Positions 3,711 to 60,979 of a stretch of 64,000 nucleotides of DNA are shown piece after piece (the first letter of the stretch is position 1; every line of letters begins with the position of its first letter). This stretch comes from Cloeon dipterum. Lineage: Eukaryota > Arthropoda > Insecta > Ephemeroptera > Baetidae. The notes below the pieces were generated by a model. The model was given only the letters and a program-made list of their open reading frames with translations, was not told the DNA's origin and did no database searches. Made by a program: the position numbers and the translations under genes. The stretch covers positions 25,534,501-25,598,500 of the forward strand of contig NC_088787.1 in the NCBI RefSeq assembly GCF_949628265.1, given 5' to 3'.

Positions 3711-6700
3711 TCAATATCTGCGATCCATGTCATAGTCGCGGCCTTGGCTGTAACCACCTCCTGCGCTCCCTCCTGCCACACAAACAGAATTTTCTTCGTC
3801 ACCCGATCCCAAAATGCAAGAACAAACAGTCACCATTCCCTTGACCCTCTCTGGATCTATATGCCTTTTTCAATCGCTCTCACCACTTTCAGTAAATAGC
3901 TAAATTTGATGCTAGCTTTTGAGCTCAGGACCAATTTTGCTGTTAAAAATAATTCAAATTTTGAAAATATTTTGTCTTCAATTTTGATTTAGAAATGCGA
4001 ATTTTTTTTCAAATCTTGAAGCCCCAATTGGCAGAAAAAACTTAAAGAGAAACATTAGGATCTAGTCCCCAGTGTTTAAACCTAATCAGAGGTGATATTG
4101 GGGCACTAAGTGATTGTATGCCTTAGATGCCCTCAGGTAATTGGTTTCATTTGGTTCGTTGCTTTTCTCCGCTTTTTCTCACTCAAAATTCGGCGGAATC
4201 ATCCGAATTCTTCTAGTCCTCTCGTTTGAAAATCGTGAATTGCTGTTACGTGAGTATTTCGTTAATTTGTACTTCTTGCATATGATTTGATAATATAGAT
4301 GTCAAATTGTCTCACGATTCACGGTTTTGATAATTGAACAAGAAGCTAGAAATCTGTGTTACACTAAATATACATTTTATGATATTCAAGACAAGTCTTC
4401 TTGCCTACTCGGAGCTAAATGATTTGTAATAAGTTTAAAACCTATCTAAACTTCTTCCATGCGTAAACTTTCGTAGTTTTGAATCCACTTGTTTCGCAAA
4501 ATTAAAATCTCCTATTTACCCTTCACGATTCAAGTGATATAAACACCAAATTACTGATAGATCTTGCTTGTCTCAAATATCAAGCTGCTTTCTAGATCAT
4601 CTTGTCCAACTGCACGTTGCCCTCAGCAAAGTGAGTATGTATTACGATCGGTTGATAATGGGGCATGAACGTGAATAAAATAGAAATTTGAATTAGCTTG
4701 CTTATGTTTATCTTTTTTCTGCCATTGCACATGTTTAAAATTTATTTTGAATTCATTCAATGACGTATAAGTAGAACACAAAATTTATGCAGTAAAACAT
4801 GTTTCAACTCCAGACATTATTTTTCAAGCTAATTAGTGGCGGGGCATATAGATCCAAGGCGTTTCTCCCAATTTGTGACTAAATGGAAAAATGCAGCTGA
4901 TCCAAAATTCGGCCTAGTACTTACCATAAGCGGGGGCTGGTGCGTTGTAATTTCGCCCGTTGTAGGCACCGGCCGACTGAGCGTAGCCTCCAGAGGAAGC
5001 GCCACCGTAGCCGGAACCGCTGTTGTACGGGTCAGAGCCCCACCGTTGGTCTGTTTGCTGGGCTGTAACATTTTTAGGTGTTCAAAGAAAATGTAGGTGT
5101 AATATTATCCGCTGTCCAAAAGTAAAATATTATATTTTTTATACTAAGTCCAGGAAAATTTTGTAGCCTTAACCCAGCTGTGCTTCCTGTAGGAATATTT
5201 ATTTTAAACTACTTGAATCATTAAATTCGCCAGCAATAGCAAAGAGCCATAAAATATTAATGAAAAATAAAATATCACATTGCTACAGCTCACCTGGCAT
5301 TTGATAAGAAGAATAAGGGTCAGCAGCTCCGTATGCAGGAGCGCTCTGGGCTGGTGCCATATAATCAGCCTGGGGCATTTCATTCTGTGAATAGCTGTAG
5401 TCAACCGTGTTGCCATTACTGTAGCTTCCACCAGATTGGCTCTGGTAGTTGTCGTAGCCGCCCTGCTGACCCTGTCTGTAATACCTGAGAACAGAAAACA
5501 ATCATATTGATTCTAGGAACCAGGGCAAGTTCTAGAACGTTAACTCAAGAGGACAAATAAAAAGTTATACATGAGGTTTGTGCCCATTTAAGGAATATTC
5601 TAAGACATCATGAACATCATGGAACTTTTTTAAATCATTACAATGGTACTTTGAGAAATATTTTTTAACTTTCACTGTTTGACTGCCCCAGTTAGTTGAA
5701 CCACCTAAATATCTTAATATTTTCACGAGCGACACAAAATTAAGATATAAATGTTATATATACTAAAATTGAATACAAATTATTGAAACAATATAACTAA
5801 AAAATTCTCAATGACAAATTGGTAAAGCTAAATTTAGTGGTCGCCTTTTTCCAAAATTTCTCAATTTAGCAGCTTAGAGACCAAAGTGCTGGTTTCATAC
5901 CCTGACTGGTAGGGATCCTGCTGTTGGTCTTCAAATCTGCCCCTCTTGGGTGCAGATCCAGGCTGAGACATGCCCATTGGGGGCCTCTTCAGCCCCTCAC
6001 CCTGTTGTTGATATCCTCCTCGATAGTCGTTCTGCTGCTGCCTGTACGGCGCTTGGTCTCCTGACGAAGAGTTGCGCTGCTGGAATCCCATTCCGGATCC
6101 TCTGCCTCGTGGAGCTCCACGATCTCCACCACGACCACGGTCAAATCCACCGCGACCTCTTGGCTGGAACAACAGGAAAAATTTAAAAAACACTCATCTT
6201 TTTTGTTGCTGGAAGAACCCTAATTCACAGGCTTTAACTTTTGAAGATTTTGAGAGTTTAAAGGTTTAACAACTATTAAATAATTAGTGGTTGCGACATC
6301 TTGAATCACTATTCAAATGGATTTATGTATTTTTGGACAGTTGTTATAAAATTATATCACCTTATCAGGCATTATCTCAATGAACATTGTCTTATCATAA
6401 TAGCATTAAATTTATTGTTAGAGAAGCCACATGAGCGGGTTTCTGTTTCTCAAAGGATACATTAGAGGCAAGTTTCTAAAATATTATCATTCATTAACTT
6501 GGCATTTATCCGTTGCACCTTCTGAACACAGGAGACAGCTCGGCCACATGGTTTTTCAGTAAAAAAACGTTGCACCACTTTAAAAACACATTGGTTTGTC
6601 TTGTAAATTTGCCATATCACAATAATTATACCAGTTCATGTATCGGTTAATACCAAAACAAGTCTGTATGCTTTCAAGAACCGTCAACATGCTGAAAATT

Positions 6701-8040
6701 GCAATCTATGTCTTCAAGAGAATGAGTTTTTCAATGGAATAATAGTTTAAAATCTATGTCAATACATCCAGCTTGCCTTTGCAGTTATCATTTAGATATA
6801 TCCGGATATATCTCTAACTAGAACTGGTCATTGATTCTAACATGCCAAAATATGGATTTAAAGATGTTGTTGGCGCTTTGTGGACCAGCAATTGGATGGT
6901 TAATTCAAGGTGCACAAGCGAAAATGTTACTCTCGACCTCAAATGATTTTTTAATTTTCAATCAACTCATTGAGGTGTTATCAATTAATTATACAACTCT
7001 TTTTATATTTAGGTTAATTTCAGCGATTTTTCGTTAGAGATTTTTATGCTTTTTATAAGTCGCTGCATTAGATGTCGTTTTTAAACTTAACGCAATTAGT
7101 TGATCACCAAGTTTTACCATGAATTTCAGCTTTATCTCATCTTGCTGACAGGTAGGTTTCTGCATTATGAATTTTAAATGTAAGTCATGCAATGATAAGA
7201 AATAAAAAACCAACCTGGTATCCACCCATTCCACCTCTGGGAGGCGCTGACCGCGAGTCGAAGCCACCGCCAGGAGCTCCTCGACCCCTGGGCACAAAGT
7301 CGCCTCGGCCTCTCATCTCACCGCCACGGCCACCTCTGGGGATGAAGGCGCCCTCTGGTCTGCCTCGGGGGATGAAGCCATCGATACGGCCTCTCATGCC
7401 GCCACCACGGCCTCCACGGTCCATGCCTCGCATTCCGCGACCTGGCCCTCCTCGCCCCCTCATGCCTCCTCCCATCATGCCGCGCGGCGGGTAGCTGCCT
7501 CGCGTGGGTATCCCTCTAGGGGCTCCCATTCCTCCACGTCCTCCGGTCGTGGGGATAGCTTCACCCTGCTGGGGGCTCGTCTGCTGCGGCTCCGCGGGCG
7601 CTCCCTCTGGCCTGGGAGCACCTCCGCCTCTGTTTGGAGGTCCACCGCGACCTCGCATACCACCACCACGCATCCCTCTGTTGAATTGAAAAGACATACT
7701 ATGTCTATTGTGTAATAATATCAGTTAAGTGTTCATACACATAATGCCGTGAAATTAATTGCATGTGAGTACTATGTTCATTTCTACAAATTGGCAAGTC
7801 TTTGAAGCTTTTGAACTATATATTTATAAAAAGTTTTGCATTTTCTTACAAACTGAAAATTTTGTCCGTACATATCTATTATACACTTCAAAACTTTAAG
7901 CAAATATTGCAGAAATTTAAATCAGTTTCAATTTTAATTTACCTCATAGCTCCTCTGTCACCCATTCCTCGACCCCTTCCAGGGCCCCCACGACCGATCA
8001 TGCCTCTTCCACGCCCAATTGGTCCACCTCGTTCGCCCAT
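3711..8040 (-). CDS. RGG-box / YGQ-rich low-complexity protein, probable RNA-binding, 404 aa
   Basis: Six minus-strand exons join in phase: 8040-7943, 7677-7215, 6163-5901, 5484-5294, 5062-4925 and 3772-3711 (TGA at 3711-3713), 1215 nt in total. The protein starts MGERGGPIGRGRG. The first ~275 residues are almost entirely RGG, RGRG and GMRG repeats with one acidic/Q stretch (APAEPQQTSPQQGEA). The second part becomes Y/Q/S/G-rich (GYDNYQSQSGGSYSN, YGGASSGGYAQSAGAYNG) and ends YSQGRDYDMDRRY. A KRGRFEDQQQ segment near the switch could be a short nuclear-localisation signal. No RRM, KH or zinc finger is visible, so I do not assign a name. Composition resembles FET or hnRNP tails, which bind RNA and drive condensate formation; function is inferred from that alone. 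The ATG lies one base inside an exon whose acceptor is at 8042-8043, so a 5'UTR exon should lie upstream towards 8.3 kb. Confidence 0.75.
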
Positions 8041-9056: not shown

Positions 9057-12000
9057 ATGACTTCCAAGCAGCCTGAGGTGTGCGATGTTCCAGATATCAT
9101 CGTCGATCCCAGCACAACACCCAACGTGACTTACAAAAGGGGCCGTTTTTTCGGCAAAGTAAGTTTCGACCGTTATATTTTTCTTCATCGCGTGCAAATT
9201 GTGGAATTCTGACATAAGAATTTCATAGATGCCTTCCCTAACCTCGAGATTCCTTGTTTTAGGGTGGATTCGCCAAATGCTATGAAATAACAGACATTCG
9301 CACCAATGAAGTTTACGCGGGCAAGGTTATCCCCAAGAAATTGCTGCTCAAGCACAATGCTCGCGAGAAAGTTGTCCAGGAAATCAACATCCACAAGAGT
9401 CTCAAGCACCCAAATGTCGTGGGCTTCAGTGGTTTCTTCGAAAACAGCGGCAACGTCTACATTATTCTGGAGCTCTGCAAAAGACGAGTAATATTATGCT
9501 CACACTAATTAATTCATGCTAGATACATACATACATATATATTATGTAGCGTTACAACAACGTGGTCCTGCTTTTTGTTGGAAGCCAACAATTGTCGGCG
9601 GTTTGAATTATTGTAATTTTGCATTCTTGTTTAACAGCAGAAAGATGATTTTAAAATAAGAATCTCCCAAACATATTTGTTAGGAGTCATTGTAGATACC
9701 TTCTTCCTAAGACAGGATACTCACAACTAATGCAATTATTATTTCGTTACAGGCACTAAAAAGTGCTTAAATTTACTAATCTATACAGGTAACACGTCAA
9801 TAAAAGTACACACATTATACTACTTAAAATTTATTCCGATCTATGTAATCAATTCTCTGAGATACCAGAAGAATATTTTTATGCGTTTAGATAAAATCAA
9901 ATTCAAATTTATTAAATTGCTATTCTTGAATGTATCATATCTATCTTGATGACCTTTTGTTATTGAAATAAGTTTAATGTAGAGCAAGTTGCATTCATTA
10001 AAATCCCCAAGAACACGTGTTATATTATATACAATTTCAACTGTTACAGCCACTAATACAGCTTTTCTTATTTCAAGGATGTTCACTCAGTCAATTTTTT
10101 TCCTTCCAGTCCATGATGGAGCTACAGCGGAGACGCAAGAAGCTGACTGAGCCTGAGGCCAGATTTTACTTGCACCAGGTGCTGCTTGGCGTGCACTATC
10201 TTCACGAGCGCAACATCATACACAGAGACTTGAAACTAGGAAACCTGTTTCTCAATGACAATCTGCAGGTCAAGCTTGGAGATTTTGGACTTGCTACCGT
10301 TGTTGAGTTCAAAGGAGAAAGAAAGAAGTTAGCACATGTAGTATGATTACAAGTTCTTATTCAAACCCTTTGTTTTTGCTTCAGGACGTTGTGCGGCACT
10401 CCCAATTACATTGCTCCTGAGGTGTTGAACAAAGTGGGCCATAGCTTTGAGGTTGATGTCTGGTCAATTGGCTGCATCCTGTACACTCTGCTGGTCGGCC
10501 GGCCTCCTTTTGAGACCACATCTCTCAAGGAGACATACCAGCGCATCAGAAACTGCGAATACAGTCTGAGCAAGGCAGCTCTCTCGCCAGAGGCAGTCAA
10601 CCTGATCCGCCGCATGCTGCAGTCAGAGCCAAAGGCCAGGCCCACAGTTAAACAGCTGCTCGACGACCCATTCTTTACCTCTGGTAATTGTTTCTATTTA
10701 TGCATTTATTGTAATATTCCAGGGTGCGACATATTCCTGAATTATTGTGAGAAGTGCACTAGCTTGAAAGTTCTGGGGAATTTTTTGCCGGTTATGTGCT
10801 GATTTCTTTTATCCCAACTTTCAGTTCTCTTGACATTGCAAAAGTCTCACCAAAAAAATTAAGAGCAACTCTATTAAATTAGCTTATTTAAAATTTGACA
10901 AAAAGTGCGCAGCTCAGCAGGCAACAATACTTAATAATCCTTTCTAGGGTTGCAATACAATGGGGAAACATATTACAACCCAGCTGAATGATGCATCTTA
11001 CACTGATCCCTGCTTGTGGTCGGTTTGAACTAGTTTGATTAAGGGTAAAGCCACTCTTATGCAACCATTTTGTCACTTGTACTTGTGCATGCTCTGCGAC
11101 ATCAAATGTTTTCCCCTGACATTGAAAGGTAGTTAATAGGGGATAAAAAAATCAAACAAATCTTGTTAGATCTTGATAATTCAAAATTTATATAATCGGC
11201 AGCTGCTGCTCAAAATAACCACTGCATTTTTCCATGATTGTGTATTTTGATACCTTGATAATGTTAATTGGTATGGAAATTATTTGTTACAACATCTGTT
11301 TTATCTTTTCAGGCTACATGCCAAAGGAGCTGCCAACCACCTGCCTCTCTGTGGAGCCTCGCTTTGACCCAGCCATTCTTGCCAAGCACAACCAGAGTGC
11401 TGTGTCTATAAAGCACCCCGCCAGCTACGCTCCAGCGGTTGGAACTGCGAGCAGACGGCCACTCACCCAGGTCAACCAAATCGACCATCGCGGTGACCAC
11501 ATCGAGGCCCAATCGCAGCCAGTTGGTCCCACTGTGATGGAGAACAGCTTCAAGCACATGCTCATGATCAAAGACCAGCTCACCAACTTGCTGGACAAAC
11601 CCAATTTGGTGAAGCCCAACAATTCATTCCTTGGTATGAATTAATTTTTCAGATTTGAAATGACTGAAATTAGTATGGACTACATTCACTTTACACTTTG
11701 TTTAAAGACAAAATAGGAACAAATCAAAGTATTTCACATATAAATTTTGAAGTAGGCGGCCACTTGAGGTTGTTTTCATGTTGAGAAAAAATTAAACCAG
11801 GCTTCATCCTCGTTATTTCAATTTCGTCATTTAAATACTCTACCAGTTTGGACGTCATCAAGTACGTCCTATTCAAGAGGCAGCTGAGGCTTGCTTTTTA
11901 TTTGGTTTTTTGAGTAAGTCTCAACTGCCTCATGAATAGGACGTACTTGATGACGTCAAAGCTGTTCGAGAATTTAAACGATGAAATTGAAATAACGAGT

Positions 12001-13159
12001 ATGAAGCCTGGTTTAATTTTTTCTCAACATATTTCACATAGCTTAAAACCAATTGGCATCATAGCTATTTTATTTTAAAATATTAAACTATTGCTGTTGT
12101 TTTTATATATCTTTCATTGAATAGTTTATGCCACTTCCTTGGAGCAAAATATTACAATTATTGATCTCATACTTTTTCATATTGCTCTTGATTAATCGCG
12201 AATTCAGAATCAATTTTGCTCTCATTTTTATCATTTAGAAAAACGAAATTGCGTCAGCTTTTATAGGCCCACTTGTCTTGAAATTGTTTTCATTGGAAAT
12301 TGAATCTATCCATGAAGAATGTTTATGTTAATTTTTGTATTAATTGCAGGAGAAGCTGAGGATCCTGCCGCCCAAGCTCTGTTCTGGATCTCCACCTGGG
12401 TGGACTACACAGACAAGTACGGCTTTGGCTATCAGCTTTGCGACGACAGCGTGGCTGTTGCGTACAACGACGGCACCAAGCTGATCTTGCTGGCAAATGA
12501 GACTGACCTTCAATACATTGAGCGAGACGGACAGGAGCACTACCACAAGATGTTGTCCTACCCAACCAGTCTGTCCAAGAAGATGAAGCTGCTTGACTAT
12601 TTCCGCCGCTACATGGTTGAGCATTTGGTCAAGGCTGGTGGCCGCCGGTTGTCCAAGGAATCTGACTCAATGGCCAGGATGCCCTACCTCTGCCACTGGT
12701 TCCGCTCGAGAAACTGCGTCATCATGTTCTTAACCAATGGAACTCTGCAGGTTGGTTTCTTCATCTCTTCTGTTCTATAATTAGTCTTGAAGAAAATTTT
12801 ATGTTGTATTGTTGAGTAAAATCATATTATAATAAAATTGCATGTGCGTGGATTGAATTGAGATGTAATAATTTAAGCACTAATATACTTGTCAAATTTT
12901 CATTACTGAAGTTAGGATTGAGAAAGCACTAAATTTTTAATTTTGATCCTTTCAGATCAACTTCTCAAACCACAACAAACTGATCATCTGTCCGTTGATG
13001 GAGGCTGTGACGCACATCACGTGTGACAATGTTCCCCACACATACCGCTTCTCCACCATTGAGCGCGAAGGTTGCTCCAGCGTGCTGCACAAAGGCCTAG
13101 AAACTGCCCTGGTGAAGGTCAAGGCTATGATCGCCACGACACAACCAACCAACGCTTGA
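9057..13159 (+). CDS. polo: Polo-like kinase 1 (serine/threonine kinase polo), 589 aa
   Basis: Seven exons join in frame to 1770 nt: 9057-9158, 9263-9487, 10110-10327, 10385-10683, 11313-11633, 12350-12750 and 12956-13159. The kinase domain shows the PLK-type glycine loop GKGGFAKC (residues 33-40), ATP-binding Lys55 in [15 protein letters not shown] with catalytic Asp149, DFG at 167-169 and the activation-loop Thr183 in [14 protein letters not shown] (equivalent to human T210). A linker follows with RRPLTQ, resembling the PLK destruction box. The C-terminal polo-box domain is complete: WISTWVDY at the start of PB1 (phosphopeptide-site Trp) and NHNKLI in PB2 (the His/Lys pincer). Length is close to human PLK1 (603 aa). 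It drives mitotic entry, centrosome maturation, spindle assembly and cytokinesis. No key residue is missing. Intron 5 contains a foldback MITE. Confidence 0.97.
11741..12029. mobile_element. Foldback/MITE element with ~110-bp inverted arms and 11-bp direct repeats
   Basis: Two inverted arms, about 11778-11890 and 11917-12030, are roughly 90% identical by eye and share the block GACGTCATCAAGTACGTCCT with its complement. The loop is about 26 bases. Flanking direct repeats TATTTCACATA at 11730-11740 and 12030-12040 look like the target-site duplication; about 38 extra bases separate the left repeat from the left arm. No open reading frame is present, so it is non-autonomous. It sits in polo intron 5 (11634-12349). 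Confidence 0.8.
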
Positions 13160-14110: not shown

Positions 14111-17100
14111 ATGGTGTGGAAGACCGCTCTGCTGCTCGCTTGCGCCTGGACAGTGTGCCAGGCCGGCGAAAAGGATGTCCTCGAGCTCACGGACGACGAC
14201 TTCTCCACCAGAATCGCTGAACATGAAGTCGCCGTTGTCATGTTCTACGCACCCTGGTATGCGATACATATACGACCCTCATTATTTAGATTTTATCTGA
14301 TAAATATCTCTGGGGTTTTGAAGTTTAAACGCTGTTACCCTAAATAGATTTAGTTTTTTTTTGACATTTTATGCGACAGGGTCGTTATTTTAACTCCTGA
14401 ATTCCTTATCAAAAATGAGACACCTACTGCAGCTCAGGATGCGGGCTGTGTATGTACATACATATTACAGATTTTTACCTGATGTTACATAAATATGTAT
14501 CTCGTCTCTTGAATAACATATATGTAGGTATTTTTCATATTTCCTCTTTCGTATGAGAACAATAAATAAACTAGGAAATTTGATACAATATGGCAAAGAT
14601 TTGAAAAAGTTATAATGTATTGCATGAGCCCACATAGCCGCAGGAAGTTTGAATCCCAGTTTGTGCTAGATCTCGTCCCTCGCACCGGATATTCATTTTC
14701 CTATATCGGTGCAGTGTGTTGTGGCTCCGTGTAATTAACTCCCGGAATTTTCCGCAGGTGCGGCCATTGCAAGAGGATGAAGCCTGAGTACGAAAAGGCG
14801 GCGCCGACGTTGCGTGCAAACGACCCGCCCGTGACCCTGGCCAAGGTGGACTGCACAGAGGCCGGCAAAGAAACTTGCAGCAAGCACGGCGTCACTGGTT
14901 ACCCCACCATCAAGATCTTCCGCAACGGAGAGGTGTCGCAAGACTACAGCGGGCCCCGAGAGGCCGACGGCATCGTTAAGTACATGAAGTCGCAGGTGGG
15001 CCCCAGCTCGAAGGAGCTCGCCAACGTCGCCGATTTCGATAAGTTCACCAGCAAGGAGGAAGTGGTCGTGGTCGGCTTCTTCAAGGAGGACTCTGACCTG
15101 AAGAAGGCCTTCCTCAAGCTGGCCGACGTCCTAAGGGAGAAGGTCACCTTTGGCAACTCCGCTGACGAGGCTGTCCTGAAAAAGGCTGACGTCAAGTATG
15201 TTGAAATGCAAGATGTATTTGTTATTGAGGTCTGATTTTATTTTCTCCCGCAGCGATGGCATTGTTTTGTTCCGTCCTAAGCACCTGGCTAACAAGTTCG
15301 AGCCCGCAACCGTCAAGTACGATGGAGCAGCCAATAAAGACGCCATTGAGAAGTGGATAAACAAAAACTAGTGAGTAATGCAACCTTGGGTAATGCTGAT
15401 ACTACTTACAAATTACATTTTTTTAGTGAAATAATACGCTGCTATAATTGCGTTTTGTTTTTAAATATATTGAAAGCATTTGGTTCTAGTGTTGTTTATT
15501 ATTAAGGGCAGGCTGAACTACTCAACAATTTTTAATAAATGCCATTTTTAAAATTTAAAAACAACATTTTAAAATACGGGGATGCAAATCACGAGCAGCC
15601 TATAATGTATTTTGAATGCTGAAAGATGTAATTTTTCTGAAAAACTAATCAGTCCATGTCTGCCAAAAATTGATACAATTTAGAATTTCACTTAAAACTC
15701 TTGCAGTCATGGCCTGTGCGGCCACAGAACTCCTAACAGAGCCGACGAGTTTTCGATGCCCCTTGTGTTGGCCTATTTTGATATCGATTACAAACTCAAC
15801 CCCAAAGGTTAGGCCCGTTTGGCGTGAATGCATGACTAACAGTTGTTTGTTTTGTTTGTGTTTGCTCCCTTTAGCCATGGTCTGGTTGGACACAGAACCA
15901 GAGACACCTCCAAGGACTTTGAGAACCCACTTATTGTCGCTTACTATGCTGTTGACTACACTAAGAACCCCAAAGGTATGGCGTTTTTGTTTGTTTGGTT
16001 GAACTTACCCCCTCACTGCACCTTTTTTGCTCTCACCCTTGTATAAGAGATGGGAAAAGTAACTGTGTTAAGTATTATTAAATCCAACTGGCCGAAACTT
16101 TGACTTGACAGCTGCTGTTGTTGAAAAATTTGAGAAGTATTTTTCTCTGAAAGCTAATCAAAGTGTTCATTCGCAATGTTTTCTTTTAATTTTAAGTCTT
16201 AGCTTGTTATAAGTCAACATCAGGTCAATACTACTACGAAAACTCTTTCTACAGGCACAAACTACTGGAGAAACCGCATCCTGAAGGTGGCCAAGGATCA
16301 CACAGATTTCAACTTTGCAATCAGCGCTAAGGATGATTTCCAGCATGAGCTGAACGAGTTTGGAATCGACTTTGTGGCTGGAGACAAGCCTCTGGTGTTC
16401 GCTCGCGACGCTAAGAACCGCAAGTTTGCCATGAAGGACGAGTTCTCGTGAGTTATTAAACCCACACAACTATTGATGAAATTTAAATTTTATATTTTAT
16501 GCAGCATCGAGAATTTTGAAACTTTCATTAAGGACCTGAAGGCTGACAAGCTGGACCCGTACCTCAAGTCTGAGCCCATCCCTGACGACAACGAGGGCCC
16601 TGTCGTGGTGGCCGTGGCCAAGAACTTTGATGAGGTGGTTACCAAGGTGGACAAGGACGTTTTGATTGAGTTCTACGCTCCCTGGTGCGGACACTGCAAG
16701 AAACTGGCCCCTACCTTTGACGAGCTTGGAGAGAAGGCAATTACATTATTTCCTTTGCTTGAGAATCGTCAATTTTTTTTATTTATTATTATTATTATTA
16801 TTAATTTATTAAGCATGCAGTAATTTGGCTAAATTTGTCCACTTCTTTGTAATTTTATCCTTGGACGCTTTGAAAACGCCTGATATTTATTTGATCCAAT
16901 TTAAATTTTACTAATCAAACAACCCAAAAGTATTATGCATCATGGAAATTCTATAATTATTTTTATGTTTTTTTTTTATTGGCCCACAGATGAAGGGTGA
17001 GGACGTGTCTATCGTGAAGATGGACGCCACCGCCAACGACGTGCCATCAACATATGACGTCCGCGGCTTCCCTACCCTGTACTGGGTGCCCAAAAACAAC

Positions 17101-17295
17101 AAGGACAGCCCTGTCAGATACGAGGTACTTACTCCATCCTGAAATAAAATTACAAGTTCCTTAAACGATGACTGCTTTCTTTTGCAGAGCGGACGTGAGG
17201 TGAACGACTTTGTTGAGTATATCGCCAAGCATGCCACCAACGAGCTCAAGGGCTACGATCGCAAGGGCAAGGAAAAGAAGAAGGAGGAGTTGTAA
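14111..17295 (+). CDS. PDIA3: Protein disulfide isomerase A3 (ERp57/ERp60), 489 aa
   Basis: Exons: 14111-14256, 14758-15195, 15254-15370, then 15707-15807 or 15875-15975, 16255-16447, 16505-16736, 16990-17124 and 17188-17295. With one alternative exon the CDS is 1470 nt. The start codon opens a signal peptide ([19 protein letters not shown]). Two thioredoxin domains carry CGHC active sites ([11 protein letters not shown] near residue 49 and [12 protein letters not shown] near residue 370), separated by b and b' domains, and the chain ends KKKEEL, a KDEL-type ER-retention signal. It catalyses disulfide formation and exchange in secretory glycoproteins with calnexin/calreticulin. Human PDIA3 has 505 aa. 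Two oddities: the b' exon is present in two tandem versions, and the intron after 16736 appears to use a GC donor. AATAAA at 17692-17697 is a likely poly(A) signal. Confidence 0.95.
15707..15807 (+). other. PDIA3: PDIA3 alternative exon 4a
   Basis: A 101-nt exon with a good TCTTGCAG acceptor and CCCAAAG/GTTAGG donor. It begins the b' domain with (Y)[11 protein letters not shown] and ends DYKLNPK(G). Its phases match exons 3 and 5 exactly. It retains the cysteine of LCGHRT found in vertebrate PDIA3. Exon 4b, 67 bases downstream, is an equivalent-length homologue. Confidence 0.85.
15875..15975 (+). other. PDIA3: PDIA3 alternative exon 4b
   Basis: A 101-nt homologue of exon 4a with acceptor CCCTTTAG and donor AAAG/GTATGG. 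It encodes (Y)[15 protein letters not shown] and ends DYTKNPK(G). It shares 17 of 33 full codons' residues with 4a and has Val in place of the LCGHRT cysteine. As 101 is not a multiple of three, using both or neither exon would shift the frame, so use should be mutually exclusive. Confidence 0.85.
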
Positions 17296-24947: not shown

Positions 24948-27900
24948 ATGACTTCCCCCTTATGCATTACTTTGGCAGTTATCATAATAATAGTGATCTC
25001 TTCTGAGGTAAAAACGGTAAAAACAATCTTCTTGCCTGCCCCAAGTAAAGCAAGTAAGTGAATACATTAAATAATTCTATAAAATAAAATCAATCTCAAC
25101 TGTAAAAGCGGAGAGCCATAGGAATCCCTTCACGAACAATGCCACTTCTACCCGAACTGTATCCGCCTGCAGCCTGCAATTCACTTTGAGCTACGGCTAC
25201 AATCGCTTCCATCAGTGGAGCACGTTTGCAAAGAGCAGCAAGGCCACAGACGGTAGCATCTCAAGCTGGACCCTCAAGTTCAAAGTCAGGGCGGCTAGCG
25301 ATGCTCACATTTTGCTCACAACAGATAGAAACACTACATTGAGTATGCCAGTTTATGAGGTAAATCAACTTTTTAGTGAATTTTAAAATAGAATTAGGCT
25401 CATATAATAGACAAAAAAAATTTAAAAAGATTTTGTGTAACTAACTGCTTAAAATTGGCCAGGACCCTAGAACGAGCTTTGATTTCTGATAATTTTCTCA
25501 ATCGTGACATACATTTTATACTTTTCAACAAGTAAGTGCTATATATCTGAGTTGATGATGTTTGTAGTTTCAAAATATAAATTAGGATAGTATATTGACT
25601 GATTCTTGTCATATTTATGTGAGCTAAATTTAGATCATCTATAGCCATTCCAATAATCAATAATCTTGTTTAATCATTTTTAGCTCATCGTTAAAAAAGT
25701 TTCTACCCACACTCGTTCAATTTATTTACGCAGATCGTGTTAGGGGCAGGACGCAACTCGTTTTCAGACCTCCGGAGGATGCAGAGAACGGGCACCAGGT
25801 CAACATTGCCGACAGCCGACATTCTGTCCCCGTTGGAGTTGCGGGGATTTTGGATCCGCTTGTCTTCCGACGGCTTCATTGGGGTCGGCAAGGAAGGAGA
25901 CGATGTTCCCTTCCTTGCGTGGCGCGACCCTGAGCCCCTGAAAATCCAGTATTTCTCGTTTTGCACGTGGAACGGAGTCTTCGGCAGATGGGAGTTCAAC
26001 TGCCCGGAAAATGAGAACTCACAATCAGTCGTTTGCCCTGTTCAACCTACTGTCACAGAAGGTTAATAAAATGAAATTTCAAATTGTGGTAGTAGCCACA
26101 CGCTACTTAAAATTCAACTTAAAAATGTGATGAAATTTTTGAAATTATTTTACAAAAAAAAACTTTAAAAAAATGGAATTTATTCGTTTAAAAAGCTTTT
26201 TAATTTGCAACTATCTGCATTGAATACTAACAAGCTCTAAATTTTTGCGTTTTATTAACAGTGGAAGAAGAAAATGATAACATTTTATCAGACGAATCGA
26301 GACTGCGGAAGCACCTTTTCACCAATTACGATCATTACTCGATTCCAAGCGCCAATAATACTGATGTCATCGATGTGAAAGTAATTTTTTTACCTCAACA
26401 GGCTCACCTGGTACGGCTTTATGAAAATTCCGAATAATATGCAATAATAACGTGTTGTTTTCAGTTCGAGCCAAAATATAGGTTAACGGTTGTTGGAACT
26501 CTCTCACTGGTAATGCGATAAACATTTCTCTGAACGACGACTGTTATGTGTTATGTGAATTTTCAACCCTCAGGTTTGGACAGATCAGAAGCTCAATTGG
26601 GACCCTGAACAATACGGTGGAATCAAAAGCATTGTCGCGCCAGCAGGAAAAGTCTGGGTTCCGGAATTGATCCTATACGAGTATGAAATTAATGTTATTG
26701 GTTATTAATTCATATTTCTGACTTTCTGGGTGGGAAATTTTAAACAAAACTTTATCCTTCACGGCAAAACACTCTGTCAGCAAGGGCGCCATCATTGTTG
26801 ATCTTTTTCCGACCTATTCATATAGTTTTGTTCTTCGTGCAATATATTTTGCACTTTTGGCCCTGCATTGTGCTTGATCAGATGTTATTGTTACAGGCAC
26901 TGGATTTGTGGAAATTTTGTCACTGTCTTTCTCTTCACGCATTTTTTCGTACCGATTTTCAACAGTTTACCTACTAAGTTGCGTAAATTGAAAAAAGGGC
27001 ATTCAAATCAGATTGTGTCAATTTGAAACTTCCATCCAATTTGACGTATTTTAAAATGTTTAGTTGAGTAGTAATAATAAATCTGCATATTTTAGTGCTG
27101 CAAATGGAAGGGGCGACGAGCTGTCTAGCTCGTTGAACAAAATGTTCATCGACCACAACGGAACTGTTCAGTGGACGCACGTGTCACGCATGGAGGTCCT
27201 TTGCCCGTTGGATCTGCAATTTTGGCCTTTCGACACTCAAAACTGTCACTTTGTGCTCGGAGTGTGGGGTCTGTCGGACAGGGTCAGCATCTGGCCCCTG
27301 GAAACGGAATACGATCAGGTGGCTCTCGTACCAGATTTGCATTACAAGTGGATGACTTTGACCTTTTGCAGTCAGTAGCAGTTGAGCAACATGGTACCGA
27401 GTGGGACATCGTCAGTTTCCAAATGCATTCAGATATCGGTCTCCTTAACCATCCGTACTTTGAGGACAAATACTATAATTACGACGACGCCAACTCTGAT
27501 GATTCTACTCCAACAACCAACCCAGCCATCGAGTTTTGGCTGACTTTGCGCAGACACAATGGACTTTACACGTGGACCTTGTTCGCCCCTTTGGATGGTA
27601 TCATCTTTAAACCATTTCACCACCGAGAATAGTTCAATATTTTTAAATCTGGATATTCCATTGTTAGCTTTTCGTTTCAGTGGTGCATTTATTCATGTGT
27701 GCCTCATTTTGGGTCGAGACGCACCGACTGATAATCTGCCTCATGAATTTGCTCATCACAGTAGCTTTTATGATGAATATTTTCAAGATATTTCCCGGAG
27801 CAACGCAGAAAACGCCGGGGATCAGTATGGAAAATTACAGCAAATAAAACTTGATGTGTCCAGCAATATTTTTCAGTAACTGTTTACGCTGACACCATGA

Positions 27901-35352: not shown

Positions 35353-38103
35353 AAGCTTCCAGCGTAACCCTTTCGCCCTTCTTTCAACGTTTCCATAAAT
35401 TTGTATATTTTTTCAATTGGCATTTCAACTTAGCCATTGACCACTTTTTCAGTATGATGTGACGTTTAAGGTTATTTGTTTCTTCTGCCTTGGTTGATTG
35501 TTAACATGTCTGGTGGCACAATTAATAATTACCATGAAATGGCCGCGGTACGTTTGGTTTGCAAATAAATTTTAAACTCTTGATATAATAGGTATTTTAT
35601 TTTAAATGAAACTCATTTACAATTTGCTTTTAAATTTTATTGCACCACTCCCATGATGAACAAGATTCAATTCAGTTTTTGCTCTAGCATTATGCTAAAC
35701 TTTTGGTCTTCCATGCGGACGAACTGGTAAAATCAAATTGGTAACGCTTAATTTCCAAATCTTTATAACGTTGTGTGTGGCTTCAATATTGCTCAGAGAG
35801 GAATTTTAGCAAATATCACATGGACTATGCTACAATTATTCTTCAATGATTAGCTAAAAATTTGCTTGGGGAGCATTTCCAAACAGACACAATCGATTTG
35901 GCCGTTGATGCATGTTTGCGGCACATCTGCAGCAGTTAGTTAGTACTTCCATTTTGAATACAGATAATTTCATGAAAAATATTATGAATTGTTTTATGTT
36001 AAATTCCATCTTTCCAAAGCTAATATTTTTCAGAAGTGGTTACATAGAAATTAACATTACGGCAAATCGGGTCTGAATCGATTGAAAGAGCTGATTTTCG
36101 TTGTCTGATAGATTGGAGGGACTGCCCAAGGTTGGTGAACAGAACAAATCTGCGGTCGTATACATTTTTCGTAAGGCAGTGCCTTGGCACTCGAGTTTTC
36201 TAGCATCCTATGATTTCTCATAAACAGGGACAGCGAAATATAATTTTATCATTACCAGAGTATGCGAAGCGCGAATGGAGAGTCGCAAATACATTGAATT
36301 GTTAAGAGAACATCAAAGAGTAGTAGTATAGTAATAAAGTGGATCAACAACTGACTAACAAACTAACTCTTGGCTAACTAGTGTACCGGGCCTCTGACCA
36401 AATCGCTCGTTTGTCCGAGCCAACCAAACAGTGAGGTCAGAAATCGCAGGGAAGCAGAAGCCCGACTGGGAACCTTATGCTAATTATTATTTCCTTTCGT
36501 CATATATAGTGATATACATGCGATTTTCACATTTAAACCCACACATGAATTGCTAGACAACGAATACACGTGACGCTTATTGCATGATTTTGAATGCTAA
36601 AATCAAATCTGTGTGGATGTGAGCATTAACTCTCTGTTAAAGATTATTACTTAGCACTCACAATGATTAATATGATTACTTTTAAAACACCCATGAGCAA
36701 GTTATTTTCAAAATATGTGCGTGCGCGAGAAAGTTTTATAAATTGTAAAATAAAGTAGAACGGGAATCTTGAGTAAAAATGCAACATAATTAGTCGTAAT
36801 AACAGAGACTGGAATGGGCGCGTGTTAGTTATTTTTTCCATCTTTTTGTGTTTGTATAGGATCAAAAAGAGAAAACAAGGAGGGCAGCATCTTGTGCGCA
36901 GGGAACTGAATTTCGAGATCCATATTCATCAGAAAGATCAAAAGTTTTAGGACTCTCTTTTCTATAAAAAGTAGTGGCACAAAACTGGCGCGAGAAACAT
37001 AAAATAAATTACAAAAAAGCCTTTCTTTATAAATTATCGTAAACATATAGTAGCTCTCTTTCACTTTTACATCAATCAGTCATTTCACAATTCCGTTCGA
37101 GAAACAACAAACCTTTGGTTGAGGTGGCAAAACCAGTATTAGTACAACATTCGAGCGTGAAAAGAAACACAACAGTAGGAAGCGCACATGCGTTATTGAT
37201 AAAAACTCTTCTATTATTGTTTTCTGTGTGTGGACATCAAGAGTTGGTGCAATGAAATCCCCCTGTTTCATCGATCTGTATCCATCGGGGACTTCTAAAA
37301 TTGGGCCCGCTTTAAAAGGAAATTTGAAAGGGAATAGCAAAACTCAATGTTAAAAAACTGTTCCCTTACTCTCGGCAGATTTGTGTTTTATGAAGCCAGA
37401 TCTTGGAACTTGTCAGACAAATATATAGGCAAAATGAAGTTTCAGAATTGATTGGAACGAATAGAATTCACTTCATTCCCTATCGAGTATATATTTTGAC
37501 TTCAAGTACCCGAGATATCCTTTGTAAATTTTGCAGCAGCAGGAATGTGAAAAATTTTGCTTCAAGCTTCTAACATCAAGTCTGCGAAACACAAGATTTC
37601 TTTTAGTTTATAATTAAAACGTAATGCGTGCCATTTTTCACATTCAACTACACGACAGCATAAATGTTAAGACCCAGAAAGCAAATTCTAAATTTTCAAT
37701 CCCTAGGAACCTTTGAAAAAGATGCTGGCTTTTTGGTTCAGTAGGCGAAGAATCTGCTAGATTCAGCCAGCTCAACTCTCAAATTCTGACACATGATAAG
37801 ATCACAAAGCGCGATTAAATATACATTAACCGATTTGGACTCGCAAAACAATAACGAAACTAACCCCGGTACAGGTGAAAACCAGGTAGTAATTTTTCCC
37901 ACGGGAAGACACTACAAATTTAGCAAAGTGCGACTTAAACCTTTTCCAACACTCTTATCAACCTATTTCGATTATGAAAGGGAGAAAAATAAATGTTTAA
38001 AACTTTAAAAGATGCAAACTAACAGCCGCGGATTAAAGCGAAGACTGGCTGAATCAGGGCAAAGAATGTCTCGCCATTGGCTGAGAAGCGGAAAGGCCGG
38101 GCG
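35353..38103. other. Intergenic region between SERF (+) and the epimerase gene (-)
   Basis: About 2.75 kb, A/T-rich until 38.0 kb. I see no exon with splice and homology support. An ATG at 35506 opens 14 codons (MSGGTINNYHEMAA) followed by a GTACGT donor and could be an orphan first exon, but no continuing exon was found. Confidence 0.4.

Positions 38104-45878: not shown

Positions 45879-60979
<15,101 letters not shown>

Follow-up and report, generated by a model that had tools for sequence, protein, structure and literature searches.

The gene of the ER oxidoreductase PDIA3 (ERp57) in the mayfly Cloeon dipterum carries two adjacent homologous exons, here called 4A and 4B. We think it quite probable, judging from the genomic sequence, that they form a tandem duplicated and mutually exclusive pair in the only PDIA3 gene found, giving two forms of the enzyme which would both dock calnexin and calreticulin and would differ in the surface of the b' domain and in one cysteine. 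The window, i.e. the whole stretch of DNA that was analysed, covers 64,000 nucleotides (NCBI RefSeq assembly GCF_949628265.1, contig NC_088787.1, positions 25,534,501 to 25,598,500 of the forward strand), and all coordinates below refer to it.

The PDIA3/ERp57 gene is complete in the window and lies on the + strand, with its coding exons at 14111-17295 arranged as follows.

14111..14256, +, PDIA3 coding exon 1: start ATG, apparent signal peptide and start of domain a (Pfam Thioredoxin)
14758..15195, +, PDIA3 coding exon 2: remainder of domain a (CGHC) and part of b
15254..15370, +, PDIA3 coding exon 3: end of the b domain, with the equivalent of human Lys214; ends in phase 2 (TA)
15371..15706, +, intron 3: 336 nt, 5' of exon 4A
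15707..15807, +, alternative exon 4A: 101 nt, 34-residue peptide, equivalent of human Cys244 present
15808..15874, +, 4A-4B intron: 67 nt, with a CTAAC branch-point-like site and a pyrimidine-rich acceptor (13/16), by consensus match only
15875..15975, +, alternative exon 4B: 101 nt, 34-residue peptide
15976..16254, +, intron 3' of exon 4B: 279 nt
16255..16447, +, constant coding exon 5: b' domain, with the equivalent of human Arg282
16505..16736, +, PDIA3 coding exon 6: apparent GC donor
16990..17124, +, PDIA3 coding exon 7
17188..17295, +, PDIA3 coding exon 8: C-terminal KEEL

Exons 6-8 (16505..17295) together encode the end of b', domain a' with its CGHC site and the C-terminal KEEL, and the protein as a whole has the domain order a-b-b'-a', in which two CGHC thioredoxin domains flank b and b'. 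The KEEL terminus resembles KDEL and may act as an ER retention signal. Pfam Thioredoxin (in two stretches) and Thioredoxin_6 were matched by both the 4A and the 4B forms. When the 4B-form protein was compared with PDB, the four best rows were all human PDIA3 (488-493 bits, nearly full length) and the next was PDI, at 264. Compared as protein entries, human ERp57/PDIA3 (3F8U, 2H8L, 6ENY, 7QNG) shares with the protein encoded here the domain order, the CGHC sites and the equivalents of Lys214, Lys274 and Arg282. The intron borders of the gene are AG/GT, except for the apparent GC donor 3' of exon 6, which reads GAGAAG/gcaatt at 16734-16742. With the region of 4B and exon 5 as query, a search of the genome (190 Mb, 10 contigs) gave three matches, all of them within this gene, and among the best candidates scored in that search there was no second PDIA3 locus or retrocopy. 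Other b' domains of the genome appear as PF13848 matches on contigs 3 and 5; in the loci compared for these, the peptides of the two exons described below, 4A and 4B, had no significant match (best E 0.48).

The sequence-only reading had described two adjacent 101-nt exons with matching phases, and their borders and phase were confirmed at 15707-15807 and 15875-15975, each exon starting in phase 2 after exon 3 and being flanked by AG and GT. The 17 of 33 shared residues counted earlier were found again and are the same as an identity of 18/34 once the residue formed at the exon 3 junction is included. At the nucleotide level 63 of the 101 positions are identical, and by codon positions 1, 2 and 3 the identities are 25/35, 25/34 and 15/34 with the two shared junction-codon bases counted. 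Rough values from 34 codons are dS 1.24, dN 0.40 and dN/dS about 0.3. In view of this dS and of the divergence at third positions, the duplication looks old rather than doubled by the assembly. With 0.59 for 4A and 0.53 for 4B, the GC3 is lower than in the constant exons (0.75), which is a point against the main reading.

The similarity is well above the background of the window. On its two strands 423 frames, 4A and 4B included, are bordered by AG...GT, free of stops, 86-116 nt long and of the phase required; among them 4A reaches 0.588 of the self-score of 4B, and the next best reaches 0.070. A like search in the introns flanking exons 2, 3, 5, 6 and 7 is a weak control with few candidates, namely eight (seven for exon 3 and one for exon 5), and their best scores are below zero. 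No third copy of the exon was found in intron 3, in the intron after 4B or in the genome search. Published criteria for the prediction of mutually exclusive exons, as given in passages of PMC3228551, are similar length, borders and frame, and homology, with a cut-off of 15% on the score of that study. The pair agrees with them in length, frame, splice sites and homology, where our similarity score of 0.588 is a different score from theirs. In the same passages, 90 of 16,180 exons (0.56%) on the Drosophila X that are not mutually exclusive also satisfy the criteria (PMC3228551).

The argument for exclusivity comes from the reading frame. Spliced in silico, the gene yields a protein of 489 aa with 4A only and again of 489 aa with 4B only. 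When 4A and 4B are joined together, the frame shifts and translation ends after 310 aa, at a stop in exon 5 that still has three junctions downstream of it; when neither is used and exon 3 joins exon 5, the junction codon TA-G becomes TAG and translation stops after 233 aa. The claim made before, that only one of the two can be used per mRNA, holds for productive mRNAs in this in-silico splicing, and because both double inclusion and no inclusion break the frame, a productive full-length mRNA has exactly one of 4A and 4B, whatever the splicing mechanism. Each exon alone would lead to a complete a-b-b'-a' enzyme. The double-inclusion and double-skip mRNAs, with their early stops, should by the general rule enter nonsense-mediated decay, and the exclusivity of the productive mRNA would be secured mainly by frame. 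In human, according to passages of PMC5740500, exon lengths that are not a multiple of three occur in 377 (60%) of the mutually exclusive exon clusters, and in 83 of these 377 (22%) there are reads that connect the two exons, so some double inclusion would not be unusual here.

The same frame logic can be turned into another explanation, by which 4A serves mainly as a poison switch: the frameshifted 4A+4B mRNA would lower the dosage of PDIA3 and the 4A-only mRNA would be minor. Consistent with it, 4A+4B is out of frame with the exon 5 stop placed before three further junctions, and the 67-nt intron should be spliceable given that introns of 57-63 nt are present elsewhere in the gene. However, a pure poison exon needs no similarity at the protein level, and 4A retains the pattern of the family as well as the docking lysine, for which reason we rate this explanation as very unlikely.

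Whether 4A is a coding exon at all bears on a further alternative, that it is a decayed or decaying copy of 4B, skipped in every transcript. The 4A form does score lower with the PF13848 profile, by about 6 bits (104.9 bits versus 111.1 bits for the 4B form), and the b' region compared with PDIA4 (3ec3) also gives 85.6 bits with 4B and 81.7 bits with 4A; since both favour 4B, 4A is the less canonical copy and 4B the more canonical one. The ERp60 sequences of other insects presumably resemble 4B. Against decay stand the lack of any stop in 4A, its intact AG/GT borders and the low dN/dS. Among 20,000 random versions with 38 substitutions, an identity of 18/34 is kept in 0.18%, and this together with no stop in 0.055%. 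The likeness of 4A to human ERp57 equals that of 4B: for the b' region compared with five human ERp57 rows the range is 117.7-119.5 bits if it contains 4A and 116-117.9 bits if it contains 4B, and in an ungapped comparison of 34 residues, from which human Gly257 is omitted as in the printed alignment, the BLOSUM scores are 77 for 4A and 73 for 4B, with 13 and 14 identities, respectively. When 4B is made to decay neutrally without stops, 38 substitutions bring the score to 6.4 on average, with 77 attained in 0 of 20,000 trials, and with 19 substitutions 77 is attained in 0.025%. If identities are counted instead, 13 is attained in 0.015% of trials with 38 substitutions and, less favourably to 4A, in 2.3% with 19 substitutions. 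Moreover, three residues matching human ERp57 are present in 4A and absent from 4B (Cys244, Asp253 and Asp266), and those found only in 4B are Asp250, Tyr265, Val267 and Lys271. By these measures 4A does not look decayed, both copies appear to be under coding constraint, and a dead 4A strikes us as improbable. At the level of genomic sequence, the earlier proposal that the start of b' is encoded by mutually exclusive exons has good support in the anatomy, in the frame logic and in the coding constraint.

What the exchange would change in the protein can be read from the alignment with human ERp57, whose residue numbers are taken here from the full-length chain 7qng_B. Ten of the 34 residues are identical in human, 4A and 4B, being the equivalents of Gly242, His246, Thr248, Leu260, Ala263, Tyr264, Asp268, Tyr269, Asn272 and Lys274. 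The two exons diverge most in the stretch that corresponds to human 249-258, where they share one residue of nine, and also at 270-271, with KL in 4A and TK in 4B. In the first nine residues the sole difference is at 244, where 4A has the Cys of human ERp57 and 4B has Val, which bears out the remark in the sequence-only reading that one form loses a cysteine. The 249-258 segment would fall in the first helix of b', if one goes by the thioredoxin-like fold given for this domain in passages of PMC7687155.

As regards docking, passages of PMC7687155 report that ERp57 carrying K214A, K274A or R282A is impaired when monoglucosylated RNase B has to be folded, and that with R282A the binding to calnexin and calreticulin is abolished. 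The b' domain of human ERp57 is without the hydrophobic client pocket of the PDI kind and docks calnexin/calreticulin instead, as stated in passages of PMC7763558. In the alignment the equivalents of Lys214, Lys274 and Arg282 are K, K and R in both forms; 4A and 4B each end, as far as complete codons go, with the one for the Lys274 equivalent, and the equivalents of Lys214 and Arg282 lie in constant exons. Because these residues are the same in the two forms, both are predicted to dock calnexin and calreticulin. That the exon choice would abolish the calnexin dock was considered and is not favoured, as the Lys274 equivalent is kept in both. The two client specificities suggested by the sequence-only reading are possible, but the docking step itself should not be switched. 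Where the forms do differ, in the surface that b' presents around its start (human 249-258 and 270-271) and in the one cysteine, the exchange may tune the contact with partners or clients rather than turn the lectin dock on or off. As to the docking partners, two contigs of this genome carry calreticulin-family matches; the match on contig 3 has an MDG tip, and none was seen in the pieces of the match on contig 4, a gene which we would guess to be calnexin.

How the choice between the exons is made is a separate question. It could be actively enforced, by a structure of the pre-mRNA or by a branch point near the 4A donor, in a tissue- or stress-specific manner; such enforcement would refine the tandem-pair explanation and is compatible with it, and we take it to be possible though rather doubtful. 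For a branch point speaks the CTAAC motif of the 67-nt intron, whose branch-like A, by consensus match only, is at intron position 32, i.e. 32 nt from the 4A donor and under the limit of about 50 nt between branch point and donor that passages of PMC7969005 discuss for vertebrates. Yet branch-like A's, also by consensus match, are found at 29 and 40 nt in the 57- and 58-nt introns of PDIA3, which together with one of 63 nt, without a plausible site, are presumed constitutive. The short intron is therefore no distinctive sign of steric exclusion, for all three introns are shorter than 67 nt and their existence means that short length alone cannot forbid 4A-4B splicing. The splice sites of 4A are within the range of the eight introns of the gene, with two donor mismatches (range 2-3) and 11/16 pyrimidines (range 10-13).

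For an RNA structure one may point to a pairing of 12/13 between early intron 3 and the acceptor region of 4A, but an equally good pairing near the 4A acceptor arose in 14 of 200 shuffles. Long duplexes among introns 3, 4 and 5 and both exons were inside the range of the shuffles as well (six comparisons, ranks 7 to 76 of 100). Pairings of the docking/selector type, for which the sequence-only reading had proposed a search, thus show no excess over shuffles in this crude test of a single genome. In the simplest view, frame and decay would secure the outcome and ordinary regulators would bias the exon choice.

Tandem homologous exons are known from other genes. The alternative exons 9 and 10 of collagen prolyl 4-hydroxylase alpha, which we take to be homologous exons for the substrate-binding part of an ER enzyme, differ from the present pair in gene and domain. 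OGDH 4a/4b (passages of PMC7969005), cacophony (passages of PMC9741552), U2AF1, Dscam and Mhc have, like the pair here, adjacent homologous exons of which a productive mRNA carries one, so that one segment of the protein is swapped; in cacophony, by the same passages of PMC9741552, the swapped segment also lies at a partner-binding site, as in PDIA3. Unlike these known tandem pairs, the present one is in an ER oxidoreductase and its exclusivity is known from the reading frame alone. Human PDIA3 has rMATS 'MXE' events in passages of PMC11346782, with the same gene and label, but there the label is a software category applied to human transcripts, and those passages do not mention homologous tandem exons for the events. 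Among the matches listed, taken as titles, starts of abstracts and passages of PMC11346782 and PMC3827500, there was no report of a tandem exon pair in PDIA3/ERp60; Hatje and Kollmar 2013 may include this pair in their Drosophila catalogue. The word 'disulfide' is absent from the main texts of PMC3303723, PMC3228551, PMC5740500, PMC9741552, PMC9013439 and PMC3923563, and 'PDIA' from those of PMC9741552 and PMC5740500.

The usual view of ERp57 is of one enzyme, which calnexin and calreticulin bring to its clients. If the tandem pair is used as proposed, two forms differing only within 34 residues beside a constant docking site would make a natural experiment on the rest of the b' surface. A stronger version can be put forward tentatively, as a speculation more apt to fail than to hold: the pair may be an old and conserved splice switch of PDIA3, regulated by tissue or by ER stress, between two calnexin/calreticulin-docked ERp57 forms that differ in their b' surface and in having or lacking the cysteine. 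One lineage would then have two splice forms of its glycoprotein-folding oxidoreductase, and others a single one. With regard to stress, the element pattern CCAAT-N9-CCACG (at most one mismatch) has two matches in the window, at 37286 and 48703, which is not above chance.

Relatives were searched for in public contigs, with none found in the genome contigs and one locus in the viral contigs, matching residues 115-141 of the query only. Scans of the window with Rfam at the gathering threshold and for tRNA gave no match. As for the neighbours of PDIA3, a polo-like kinase gene, with matches to protein kinase and to POLO_box, has exons just upstream of it on the same strand, at 10002-12780. Arginine-glycine-rich (RGG) open frames are found on the - strand at 5861-7724, for which the name of RNA-binding protein is a guess, and a FAST kinase-like domain is matched on the + strand at 374-886 with 44 bits. 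Downstream, a Methyltransf_FA (farnesoic acid O-methyltransferase) domain is matched at 25695-26066 with 92 bits, and FERM central-domain matches occur in two + strand frames at 58139-59362.
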